Source: Nitrososphaerota archaeon
Lineage (GTDB): Archaea; Thermoproteota; Nitrososphaeria; Conexivisphaerales; DTJL01
Direction of reading: 5' to 3'
Assembly (NCBI GenBank): GCA_021324115.1
Contig: JAJPJS010000027.1
Location: forward strand, 124,001 to 188,000
Length of the DNA stretch: 64,000 nucleotides
Shown here: one piece after another, positions 6,029 through 10,482 of the stretch
Layout of the letters: each line of letters opens with the position of its first letter
Numbering within the stretch: the stretch's first letter is position 1
Program-made: the position numbers and the translations under genes
The notes under the pieces: generated by a model
Database searches by the model: none
What the model was told of the DNA's origin: nothing
The model's input: the letters and a program-made list of their open reading frames with translations, nothing else

Positions 6029-6607
6029 ATGGCCAGAACCAATCTGTCTGTTGATGAAAGAGTTTTTGAGGAGTTCTCGTACCAGGCACAAAAGCAGAAC
6101 AAAACACTGTTTGCGTTTGGAAATGAATCACTTTCTGTAATATCGAAGATTTGTGCAGAGGGGGGAACCCCCGCCGAGATTGCCATGCTCTGGAAGGTAG
6201 CAATAGTCCTAAGACAAGTTGATGTGATGACGCTTCCCGCAGACTTCCTCGATTTATTGATCGAGAAGCTGTACAACACCGATAAGGCTTGGACTTTGAA
6301 GATGTTTGGACAGCTTGGTGCGTCAATGGTTGGATTCATGAAAATCGCGGTGGGAGAATTCGAACAGCTTGGAGAATTGGCTCGGGAATTCGAGTTGATC
6401 CTGCCCATAAAGAAGTTTGATATCGAGACAATCGATAAAAATACGATACGAGTGAATGTGATCGGTGCGGGGCGAAAGGTCTGTTCAACAGAATGCTCTC
6501 TGGAGTTCCTCAAAGAACTCCTGAATGGGTTTGGGTGGAATGTAACACAGCAGGAGTTCGGCGTGGGTACGATACAAATCACGGCTTCAAAACGTGGCTT
6601 GCCCTAA
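6029..6607 (+). CDS. Uncharacterised protein, possible ribbon-helix-helix N-terminus
   Basis: I do not recognise this 192-residue protein. The N-terminus (ARTNLSVDERVFEEF) resembles the short strand plus helix of ribbon-helix-helix DNA-binding proteins; the middle is helical, and the last about 60 residues form an alternating beta/alpha stretch with two cysteines close together (residues 151 and 155). It has no membrane segment or signal peptide. The ATG is preceded by an A/T-rich element (about 5993-6002) at a distance fitting a leaderless archaeal message. The antisense frame across it is open but looks like a shadow. A regulator is possible but unproven. Confidence 0.55.
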   Translation: MARTNLSVDERVFEEFSYQAQKQNKTLFAFGNESLSVISKICAEGGTPAEIAMLWKVAIVLRQVDVMTLPADFLDLLIEKLYNTDKAWTLKMFGQLGASMVGFMKIAVGEFEQLGELAREFELILPIKKFDIETIDKNTIRVNVIGAGRKVCSTECSLEFLKELLNGFGWNVTQQEFGVGTIQITASKRGLP

Positions 6608-6812: not shown

Positions 6813-6896
6813 ATGGAATCATGGAAGATCTGTGGTTTTTGTTTGATAGGCCCAATCATCCGCCTATGTTCGAGGTGTGGTTATTTTGAAGAGTGA
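6813..6896 (+). CDS. Possible 27-residue micro-ORF with two CxxC pairs
   Basis: An ATG-started frame of 27 codons contains CGFC and CSRC, two CxxC knuckles 9 residues apart, ending in GYFEE. It overlaps the first 20 bases of the next gene, which also carries a CxxC. A TATA-like TTATATAA (about 6796-6803) is nearby but only about 10 bases before this ATG, too close for normal archaeal spacing, so this may be a relic or chance. Low confidence. Confidence 0.2.
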   Translation: MESWKICGFCLIGPIIRLCSRCGYFEE

Positions 6897-7254
6897 AGTT
6901 GTCAGCTGTCCGATTTGTGGAAGCACGAACGTTCTCTCACAGGATCGCCCGGACAACCTTACTTCGGGAAGGTATGAAAGAGGCGTCCATTTCGTGTATT
7001 ACATGTGCATGATGTGCGGTGCTTCATGGCATGTTGAAGATAATAAAAGGGGGATTGATTCCGTGTCTTTGCTACGATTCGGTCGTATAGCAAGTCTGGT
7101 GGCTTGCGGGCTTCTAATACTGAATCTGTATTCGGTTCTGCGCTTCCTAGTTGGTAACATCTTTGTGACTGCGGGTTTCTTTGATCTTCTGATGCTTATC
7201 GTCAATTCTCACCCCGGACATAGGAACATTCAGGAAACTATGCATTACACGTAG
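6877..7254 (+). CDS. Small zinc-ribbon protein with membrane segments
   Basis: A 125-residue protein with an N-terminal CPIC ... CMMC zinc ribbon (about residues 11-14 and 44-47) followed by one or two hydrophobic segments (about residues 69-105). The GTG start at 6877 leaves the ribbon close to the N-terminus; TTG 6886 is also possible. It is probably a membrane-anchored protein with its zinc domain in the cytoplasm. Upstream lies TTATATAA at 6796-6803, which would give a leader of about 50 bases. No function can be assigned. Confidence 0.5.
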   Translation: MVILKSEVVSCPICGSTNVLSQDRPDNLTSGRYERGVHFVYYMCMMCGASWHVEDNKRGIDSVSLLRFGRIASLVACGLLILNLYSVLRFLVGNIFVTAGFFDLLMLIVNSHPGHRNIQETMHYT

Positions 7255-7441: not shown

Positions 7442-8944
7442 TTGGAGAACCTTGGGCAAAAGATGAGTGCTCCGTCGACGTCTTCAGGATTGAAGAACCG
7501 TATATTTGATCCCAGATTCGTCTTCTGGTGGAGCATCGTATGGGGGATAGGCATCATGGCCCTGTCCCCCCTGGTGAACTACATTACTCCGTTGCTGAAT
7601 CCAGCATATGCGAATCAGTGGACCCCCGACATTTATTGGAGGCTGGTCATGTACTGGCACGGTGGAATATTCATACCATGGATTACTGCCCTTGCGGTGC
7701 TCGTTTACGTAGTATTCAAATTGGACTCGATAAAGGGAATCTCGGGTCGACTTCTAAAGGATTCGATTCTAATAGGCGGTTTCGTCGCAGTTCCGGTAGC
7801 AGGTGTCGCAGGATTATTCGATGTTTACGACAACTTCGCGCTCGGGGTACCTCTCTGGACCCAGATCTTTGCATTTCTCATAGGGGATGAAATGGCTGTT
7901 GCTCTAGTACTCGCAATGCTCAACAAACCCAGGCAGTCAGGGAAAGGCTTTAGAAGTGAAGGGCTTGCGTATTATACGGTAATCCTTGCGATCATATCGG
8001 CCATATTTGCTGCAGTGATGGGACACATCGGCGGATGGATATCCTGGTTCGGACCTTGGCCCTCGGTCGTCCCTCAATACATCAACTATACCCTCTATTC
8101 ATCTCTAGGATTTTACAATAGCACAGCTGTAGTCACATTCACCGAAAACGTGGTGGGCTCACATTCACACCTGATGGTTGCCTCCTTGATGGCAGGCGTC
8201 ATCGGTCTTGTCGCCTCATACTTTGGCTACGATAACAGGTGGAAGGGCACATCGAAGGGATTGTCTGCCATTGGGTTTGCCATCATGATAGTCGGTCTTC
8301 TTTCGGCACTCTGGGTTTACATAGTGTCGGGTGTGGGGAATTATGCGATACCCACACTCTTCGAATCCGGGCCGAACGGCATAGCCTTTGATGACATACT
8401 TACGGGTGTTGTGGGGTTTGGTGGACTGTTCGTGCTCGTCGGCCTTCTTCTTTATTCGAAGAACAATACCAACGGAGGGGAAAGGATACTGTTAAGGGAC
8501 CCACTTTTCATCTCGGCAATAGTGGCATGGCTGTTGATATACTTGGTAGTTCCCATCACGGGGTACTACATCGAGCTCAACGAATCCTACTTCAGTGCAG
8601 CAGGTCTGTCGTTTGACCAAGCTTTCACAAGGTTCCACCAAGACTTTGGCTTCTTTGTGTTACCGCCTCTTGTTACACTGGTTCTTGGATTGTTTACGTT
8701 CGGCCTAACCGGAAGGGCGAAGAGAACGGTCGCATATTTACTACTTTCAGGCGAAGTCATAGCTTTTGTGTTCGGAGAAATTTACAGCATGGTGGACCTC
8801 AACACAATCTTTCTGATCATCGCTATATTCGGAGGCCTGCTGATGGGTATAGGTGCGGTAGGGGGCGCGATTTCTGTGGCAGCGCGGCCGCAAAGAGTAG
8901 CGGTAACGATGGCAAGCCAGGTGACAAAATACGAGGGGGCCTGA
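7442..8944 (+). CDS. Polytopic membrane protein with five histidines, possible heme protein related to heme-copper oxidases
   Basis: About 12 predicted membrane helices in 500 residues. Histidines occur only in or near helices: H73 (YWHGG), H195 (GHIGG), H241 and H243 (SHSHLMVA) and H399 (RFHQDFG). This small set suggests heme or metal ligands. The canonical subunit I motif of heme-copper oxidases (HPEVY-type) is not visible, so it is not a standard oxidase subunit. Two genes downstream is heme O synthase, which supports a respiratory role. The TTG start at 7442 has a weak GGATGA element before it; ATG 7463 is in frame. The stop is 12 bp before the next gene. The exact family is not recognised. 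Confidence 0.6.
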   Translation: MENLGQKMSAPSTSSGLKNRIFDPRFVFWWSIVWGIGIMALSPLVNYITPLLNPAYANQWTPDIYWRLVMYWHGGIFIPWITALAVLVYVVFKLDSIKGISGRLLKDSILIGGFVAVPVAGVAGLFDVYDNFALGVPLWTQIFAFLIGDEMAVALVLAMLNKPRQSGKGFRSEGLAYYTVILAIISAIFAAVMGHIGGWISWFGPWPSVVPQYINYTLYSSLGFYNSTAVVTFTENVVGSHSHLMVASLMAGVIGLVASYFGYDNRWKGTSKGLSAIGFAIMIVGLLSALWVYIVSGVGNYAIPTLFESGPNGIAFDDILTGVVGFGGLFVLVGLLLYSKNNTNGGERILLRDPLFISAIVAWLLIYLVVPITGYYIELNESYFSAAGLSFDQAFTRFHQDFGFFVLPPLVTLVLGLFTFGLTGRAKRTVAYLLLSGEVIAFVFGEIYSMVDLNTIFLIIAIFGGLLMGIGAVGGAISVAARPQRVAVTMASQVTKYEGA

Positions 8945-8956
8945 GGTGATGTACAG

Positions 8957-9595
8957 TTGGTCAATTCATCGGTTGCCGGGATTCGAAAGTCAGAGATTGA
9001 ACGCCCGGTTAGGGAGGCTGAAAAACTGTCAGAAACGCTCGGTCTCCCCGAAAAAGTGAAGGATGACGCCAAAGTATTCATCAGCTTTGCCTTGAGTGAG
9101 CACAGGAATCTGCCAATTCTAGCGGTAGCTGCTGCTTCAGTATATGCAGCATGCAGGAAGAACGGAGTTCCAGTCACCATAGGGGAAATAGGCAGATCAA
9201 TGAATCCGAAGGTTGAGCCCAGCAGGATAGCACGTTACTACAAGAGGCTCTACAGCGAGGTCTTCCATGAACAAATGCCTCGGGTCGCGACTGCGGAAAA
9301 ATATGTAGCCAAAATAGCACGCACAGAACATTTGCTTCCTTCGGTCGTCAGCAGTGCTCTGCAATTGATAGCTGAGGCCAAGAAAGCAGGAAACGGATCT
9401 CTGGGAAGGCACCCTGCTGTGGTTGGAGCCGCCGCGTTGTATATCGCAGGTCGGCAGGCTGGTCTTCACATTACCCAGCGGATGGTTACAACAAGCGCCG
9501 GCCTCTCGGACGTAGGCCGTGTCAGGGAAGCGATCAGGTCTCTATGTACAACGGCGGTCGCAAAGCAGGAGGGGAATCCGACAGAAAAGGGGTAG
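8957..9595 (+). CDS. TFB-like transcription factor without zinc ribbon
   Basis: Two cyclin-like repeats of archaeal TFB (about residues 20-105 and 110-205) are clear: AAASVYAACRKNGVPVTIGEI and the second-repeat AAALYIAGRQAG. A full TFB is about 300 residues with an N-terminal zinc ribbon and B-finger/B-reader; here only about 20 residues precede the first repeat and no CxxC is present. It could bind TBP and BRE DNA but should not recruit RNA polymerase in the usual way. The TTG start is decided by a strong Shine-Dalgarno, GAGGTGAT at 8943-8950, six bases upstream. It sits between the membrane protein and heme O synthase in one apparent operon. Confidence 0.8.
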   Translation: MVNSSVAGIRKSEIERPVREAEKLSETLGLPEKVKDDAKVFISFALSEHRNLPILAVAAASVYAACRKNGVPVTIGEIGRSMNPKVEPSRIARYYKRLYSEVFHEQMPRVATAEKYVAKIARTEHLLPSVVSSALQLIAEAKKAGNGSLGRHPAVVGAAALYIAGRQAGLHITQRMVTTSAGLSDVGRVREAIRSLCTTAVAKQEGNPTEKG

Positions 9596-9603
9596 AGTGT
9601 GAA

Positions 9604-10482
9604 TTGCTCCAATCTGCGAAGAAGGTAGAGAACTATGTCGAGATGATAAAACCGAAAGTGGTTCTTCTTTTGTTAATGACAGGCATCGCAGGAATGCTTG
9701 TTGCCTACAGAAGCATCGGAGTAACTCCGTCCCCGACGTATCTTTTCATTGGAAGCATCGCTCTCTTCCTAGGGTCGTCCGGTGCTGAGGCTATTACAAA
9801 TTACCATGACAGGGACATAGACTCCATAATGGAGCGAACGAAGAAAAGACCCATACCGTCTGGAAGAGTTGGGGCAAAAGGGGCACTCTTGTTTGGAATC
9901 ATTGCCTCTGCAGTTTCGGTCATCATTTCACTCTGGTTCAACTGGCTGGCTGCGCTTTTTATGTCAATCGGACTATTTGATAATGTAGTAGTATACTCCT
10001 TCTGGCTCAAGAGAAGAAACTGGTCATCTGTCATTTTCGGGGGCATATCGGGAGGAATGCCAGTACTCGTGGGTTATTCGGCAATCGCAGGTACGATCTC
10101 CTGGGTTGCTGTTTTCATGGCTACCCTGGTGGTGGTATGGATTCCTATACACATCTGGAGCCTAGCAATAGCTGAAGCAGAAGATTACAAACTTGCTGGT
10201 ATACCCACACTGCCAGAAACCTTCGGACTTCAAGTCGCGTTCAAGTGCGTAGTTGCCTCCAGCATCATCCTTGTTTCATTTGGGGTTGCAGTGTTCTGGC
10301 TTGCAACCATGAGCCCGTATCTAATTGCCATTGGCTCTTTGGCCGGAGCCGCAGTGGCAGGATATGCGGTCAAGCTTGGTCTGGCCAAAAATAAGAGGGT
10401 GGCTCGGAACCTTTTCAAAATCTCAAGTCCATACCTTCTCCTGGTTTTTGTTCTTGTTCTGGTTGGTGTATGGTATGCTTGA
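9604..10482 (+). CDS. ctaB: Heme O synthase (protoheme IX farnesyltransferase)
   Basis: UbiA-superfamily membrane prenyltransferase that adds a farnesyl-type group to heme B, giving heme O for terminal oxidases. It has about 8-9 membrane helices. The first Asp-rich motif NxxDxxxD is at N66, D69 and D73 (NYHDRDID) with the typical KRPIPSG following, and the second motif reads EDYKLAGIPTLP. TTG 9604 gives a family-like N-terminus nine bases after the TFB stop; ATG 9544 would add 20 residues overlapping TFB. Its presence implies a heme O- or A-containing oxidase, most simply connected to the histidine-bearing membrane protein two genes upstream. Confidence 0.85.
   Translation: MLQSAKKVENYVEMIKPKVVLLLLMTGIAGMLVAYRSIGVTPSPTYLFIGSIALFLGSSGAEAITNYHDRDIDSIMERTKKRPIPSGRVGAKGALLFGIIASAVSVIISLWFNWLAALFMSIGLFDNVVVYSFWLKRRNWSSVIFGGISGGMPVLVGYSAIAGTISWVAVFMATLVVVWIPIHIWSLAIAEAEDYKLAGIPTLPETFGLQVAFKCVVASSIILVSFGVAVFWLATMSPYLIAIGSLAGAAVAGYAVKLGLAKNKRVARNLFKISSPYLLLVFVLVLVGVWYA

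Follow-up and report, generated by a model that had tools for sequence, protein, structure and literature searches.

Why would a piece of a general transcription factor be encoded between a membrane protein and heme O synthase? The first-pass annotation of this archaeal DNA described a TFB with both cyclin repeats, no zinc ribbon and a strong Shine-Dalgarno sequence inside a putative respiratory operon. It proposed that the protein could compete with full TFB at promoters and tune respiratory genes. The question for this locus is whether such a TFB core is a genuine and maintained gene, and which function is compatible with its sequence and its neighbours. The window, the whole stretch of 64,000 nucleotides that was analysed, corresponds to positions 124001-188000 of contig C27 in genome G000 (2.14 Mb, 95% complete). 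The features concerned are the following:

6029..6607, + strand: protein of 192 aa without Pfam match, 65% identical to its syntenic counterpart in G001, a genome of another genus in the window's family
6877..7254, + strand: protein of 125 aa with N-terminal Cys pairs and a hydrophobic C-terminal stretch, syntenic in G001
7442..8944, + strand: 12-helix membrane protein of 500 aa with five His, predicted to adopt the fold of heme-copper oxidase/NO reductase subunit I
8942..8944, + strand: TGA, the sole stop between the membrane-protein and TFB frames, which are in the same frame; likewise in G001
8943..8950, + strand: Shine-Dalgarno sequence GAGGTGAT, read from the sequence, overlapping the TGA of the upstream gene and ending 6 nt before the TTG start
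8957..9595, + strand: TFB core protein of 212 aa with TTG start, assigned from two PF00382 matches, a single-sequence AF2 model and an ortholog in G001
9544..10482, + strand: heme O synthase (CtaB/CyoE), whose gene either overlaps or directly adjoins the TFB gene; its start could be TTG 9604

The frame at 8957-9595 encodes two cyclin repeats. Pfam TFIIB (PF00382) matches it in two stretches with E 1.5e-17, and the G001 protein is matched twice as well. Among solved proteins, the P. woesei TFB cores 1ais and 1d3u are closest in sequence. The single-sequence AlphaFold (AF2) model has eleven helices at a pLDDT of 74.6, and Foldseek returns 1d3u and 1ais as top matches, followed by TFIIB; the repeats match, the whole-chain rmsd is high, and the mutual placing of the repeats is not to be trusted. 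Zinc ribbon and B-reader are absent. The frame spans just 216 codons from stop to stop, and over 1.5 kb upstream no CxxC...CxxC pattern is found in any forward frame. This is caused by the membrane-protein gene, which occupies that stretch. Because the preceding DNA encodes a membrane protein, a frameshift cannot restore the ribbon, a danger that the first-pass annotation had itself raised. We rejected a hidden frameshift for G001 also, where the one chance pattern contains a stop. We also rejected a TFB divided over two genes, with the ribbon supplied by the 125-aa gene upstream, whose Cys pairs are not kept in G001. The ribbon-less TFB core inside a putative respiratory gene set is real, and it is unusual. 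The strong Shine-Dalgarno sequence is likewise confirmed.

A search for full-length TFBs elsewhere in the genome, which had been proposed as a check, yields two (324- and 331-aa frames). The zinc-ribbon match of one exceeds the Pfam cut-off and that of the other falls just short of it, and the TFB core shares 28-30% identity with the two in the core region. With two full TFBs and a single TBP gene in the genome, the TFB core is an extra copy on which basal transcription is unlikely to depend. Loss of the ribbon is, by itself, no unique feature. Six other short TFB loci were inspected, three of which end at a contig edge and one of which enters N. The remaining two, L094:1319-2074 and L096:3676-4617 in genomes G086 and G050 of another family of the class, are mid-contig TFB frames with a missing or degenerate zinc ribbon.

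The arrangement is retained in a second genus. G001 has the same order of 192-aa protein, 125-aa protein, membrane protein and TFB core. Its TFB frame (204 codons, two TFIIB stretches) begins right after the TGA of a membrane protein that is 60% identical to that of the window. A core directly behind an equivalent membrane protein in another genus argues that the pairing is more than chance. As the related genus keeps both genes, the window TFB core is probably a dedicated regulator instead of a broken gene. The pair is conserved within one family, in two genera. A two-row profile run against 400 genomes of the class gave 398 and 369 bits for G000 and G001 and 93 bits for the next match listed, a 352-aa frame; it was built from these two cores themselves, so that its informative value lies solely in the gap to all other matches. 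Among the matches listed, these 400 genomes hold no further ortholog, and low-scoring short TFBs may be hidden there. In a search of 101 relatives, again among the matches listed, the TFB core is carried by G000 and G001 only.

Synteny in relatives, proposed as a check by the first-pass annotation, holds for the membrane protein and TFB core in the second genus and fails elsewhere. We examined 16 distinct loci that encode the membrane protein, one of them in the window (L048 and L054 represent one contig and were counted once). The TFB core stands beside two of them, both in the window's family, and is absent from the other 14. Two further genomes of this family, G002 and G003, have no match to the membrane protein itself. 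Heme O synthase had been named correctly as downstream neighbour, as it passes the NCBIfam equivalog cut-offs (NF003349, 258 bits with a cut-off of 246; TIGR01473, 253.9 with a cut-off of 210.3). As a conserved partner it was rejected, since in G001 the membrane protein and TFB core are followed by a HycI-like gene (PF01750, slightly below cut-off) and complex I genes. The respiratory context is supported by the predicted oxidase fold and by the complex I genes in G001. In G014, G016 and G019, which belong to one genus, heme O synthase follows a remote oxidase-like homologue without a TFB. The window genome contains three heme O synthase genes over cut-off (on C12, C26 and C27), and the window copy is 35-38% identical to the other two.

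The two short TFBs form one clade with a support of 98/97. Unlike at least 90% of 40 full TFBs, they both have an extra PK pair, an extra G and a deletion of two residues. Their position within the TFB tree is not to be trusted owing to long branches. Their identity between G000 and G001 is 33%, compared to 85% for a full TFB. The corresponding tree distances are 3.8 and 0.17 changes per site, a tempo some 20-fold faster, with branch lengths of 1.69 and 2.08 for the short TFBs versus 0.08 and 0.09 for the full TFB pair of the same genomes. Such fast evolution, together with a G001 copy that has no standard start codon, would be expected of a paralogue decaying into a pseudogene. We consider this very improbable, as frames of 204 and 216 codons are uninterrupted in two genera at this low identity and the window gene has a strong Shine-Dalgarno sequence. 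In addition, the first and second codon positions show fewer differences than the third (0.50/0.40/0.69 over 184 codons), and codon usage prefers the TFB frame to the other five. Compared to the membrane protein (0.35/0.20/0.66 between the same genomes), the differences by codon position indicate that the TFB core gene is constrained, yet more loosely than its neighbour.

For the residue count, the reference set consisted of 42 candidates minus two without zinc-ribbon pattern (the G001 short TFB, which was aligned as query, and one in G050), giving 40 full TFBs. At least 90% of these agree at 35 core positions, of which the window protein keeps 18 and the G001 protein 17. Near-invariant residues kept in both include A59, Y63, A65, C66, P108, G150, P153, A158, Y162 and Q174. 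Altered in both are S53, T184, T188 and N191, and R190 or R192 is altered in one of the two. The BRE-recognition helix reads T-E-V-T-x-R-x-R in the 40 full TFBs; the window protein keeps V186 and R190 and the G001 protein R192, in a region of uncertain alignment. Residues matching G153/R154 in the human BREd loop are also changed, as aligned by eye; contact of this loop of human TFIIB with BREd is described in a part of PMC4529316. With half of the conserved core residues lost and both recognition helix and BREd loop changed, binding to ordinary promoters cannot be assumed. These changes suggest a changed promoter preference or reliance on the TBP contact alone, and the target of the TFB core is uncertain. 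The net charge of the core, +9 and +10 in the two short TFBs, falls within the range of 4-17 in the 40 full TFBs and is compatible with DNA binding.

The loss of DNA-contact residues leaves room for a different role, in which promoter function has been left behind and the cyclin scaffold binds another protein, for example in assembly or regulation of an oxidase-like complex. The long branches point in this direction, as do the loss of half of the conserved TFB residues, recognition-helix positions included, and a conserved partner that is a membrane protein gene. The retained basic net charge and the near-invariant core residues kept in both short TFBs argue against it. We regard such an exapted scaffold as a possibility worth keeping in mind, albeit an unlikely one.

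The membrane protein contains exactly five His (73, 195, 241, 243 and 399), as the first-pass annotation had counted. An alignment of 11 sequences shows no variation at any of the five, and an alignment of 14 keeps four of them invariant. Pfam and NCBIfam give no match of note to the 500-aa protein. Its predicted model, built on a five-row alignment, has 12 long helices at a pLDDT of 68.3. In Foldseek, the first 16 rows are all heme-copper oxidases or NO reductases by title, with E 7e-3 or worse. In VIA, the best 50 rows all belong to that superfamily by title, with a top Z of 21.3 at an rmsd of 4.3 over 389 aligned residues. According to the tool's own warning, helical bundles without clear relative typically reach Z 14, so that a Z of 21 over 389 residues stands above the bundle background. 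Sequence profiles are silent. The COX1 profile PF00115 does not match the membrane protein up to E 10, and hhalign of the oxidase-like family against COX1 from genomes of the window's family gives nothing (probability 0.8%). The family profile likewise finds nothing meaningful among PDB sequences. The relation to oxidases is thus visible in the predicted fold only.

Heme-copper oxidase subunit I has six canonical His ligands for two hemes and CuB. The membrane protein shares its 12 helices and, by predicted model, its subunit I fold. In contrast, it has no match to the sequence family and only five His in all, and the helix matching TM10 by count carries one His, not two. We infer that the membrane protein is a respiratory protein which binds heme and perhaps copper, and that its active site is altered. 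The relatives are consistent with the class Nitrososphaeria and the order Conexivisphaerales. COX1 is present in all four genomes of the window's family and in none of 16 from other families of this order. This pattern agrees with the part of a survey (PMC10833072) that sets family DTJL01 against the rest of the order and counts the other families as lacking coxAB. Beyond the window's family, seven genomes of the order carry the oxidase-like family (G004, G010, G012, G013, G014, G016 and G019), and none of the seven shows a match to COX1 (PF00115). Oxidase-like loci besides the window include L051, L052, L053, L054, L055, L056 and L057. The neighbour is interesting by itself, as its predicted fold is missed by profile annotation and occurs in genomes of the order without COX1 match.

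The closest parallel to the TFB core is an engineered protein. TFBc, also called TFBcore, consists of the two folds cut from TFB. As described in parts of PMC8448881 and PMC10516927, it binds TBP on promoters, brings no polymerase and outcompetes full TFB in vitro. The window TFB core likewise consists of the two C-terminal cyclin folds only, without zinc ribbon and B-reader. It differs in being natural, in its much diverged DNA-contact regions and in its apparent operon with an oxidase-like gene. Canonical archaeal TFB and TFIIB share its two cyclin repeats; what it lacks compared to them is the N-terminal end. Sulfolobus TFB3 is also a truncated TFB paralogue besides two full TFBs. Following the relevant passages of PMC2246294, TFB3 keeps the zinc ribbon and is devoid of B-finger and HTH, while the window TFB core shows the reverse. 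With respect to the architecture given in those passages and in parts of PMC7289017, the window TFB core is the mirror image of TFB3. In these parts of the cited papers, the natural partial TFB (TFB3) retains the polymerase-binding end, and a core without that end appears only as laboratory inhibitor. We found no natural ribbon-less TFB beside an oxidase gene in the literature covered; subscription papers and preprints were outside its scope, and absence is not proven.

A partial TFB could also act in trans with full TFB, as a co-activator without any competition. Parts of PMC7289017 report activation by a partial TFB paralogue together with full TFB, and the architecture of TFB3 is outlined in PMC2246294. 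The TFB core is the complementary piece to TFB3 and has no polymerase-binding ribbon, which makes this role improbable here. Given the TFBc-like architecture and a basic charge within the usual range, we consider the TFB core most likely to be a natural counterpart of TFBc, either a competitor or a promoter-selective brake, with a probability of roughly 45%. The competition suggested by the first-pass annotation is therefore plausible in view of the in vitro behaviour of TFBc, tempered by a core in which only about half of the conserved residues are kept. We counted against it the 33% identity between orthologs, the lost DNA-contact residues, the missing start in G001 and the occurrence in two genomes only. 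As a competitor or brake, the TFB core would have its translation coupled to that of the oxidase-like protein and would be unable to recruit RNA polymerase. It would then act via TBP and/or promoter DNA, and could exert feedback on the operon that encodes it, or on a group of respiratory genes, while the oxidase-like protein is being made. If the native TFB core competes at promoters, archaea would use a fragment of a general factor as local brake on respiratory genes, and the pair of membrane protein and TFB core represents a small system for testing promoter competition.

The junction of the two genes bears on how the TFB core is made. The window Shine-Dalgarno sequence lies across the upstream stop and points to coupled translation. 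In G001 the junction spans L050:10102-10126, and no ATG, GTG or TTG precedes the homology in the TFB frame. A CTG at L050:10126 is a possible start; either this CTG or read-through of the TGA would explain the absence of a standard start. Read-through would extend part of the oxidase-like protein into the TFB frame and yield an anchored transcription factor. In both genomes the TFB frame is in register after the TGA with no other stop, which together with the G001 start would fit. A shared frame has, however, a one-in-three chance if inherited once, and the window gene has a strong Shine-Dalgarno sequence with a TTG start. No tRNA-Sec is found at the Rfam cut-off in the window genome (best 34.3 versus 47 bits), and the stretches from stop to core are dissimilar between the window and G001. 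We give such a membrane-tethered TFB hardly any weight. For the TFB core as competitor, a further step is conceivable, yet doubtful: co-translated with, or via TGA read-through fused to, a new divergent oxidase-like protein, it may compete with full TFB and so tie transcription initiation to a respiratory complex, either to its synthesis or to its state.

Some minor observations concern the surroundings. An exact TTTAWA scan found no TATA-like site before the window genes and is uninformative. In G206, a distant genome of the phylum, a full TFB (L067:4354-5298) lies about 3.2 kb upstream of an oxidase-like gene with three genes between, which we take as chance. Genes for copper-type P-type ATPases are located just upstream of the oxidase-like gene at three loci (L046:727-2823, L052:5489-7621 and L054:10899-13112). 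Of 61 genomes, 13 carry the 192-aa family. G000, G001 and G003 each hold four copies, G002 holds three, and the remaining carriers have one or two. In both genera, one of these copies lies in synteny with the TFB core.
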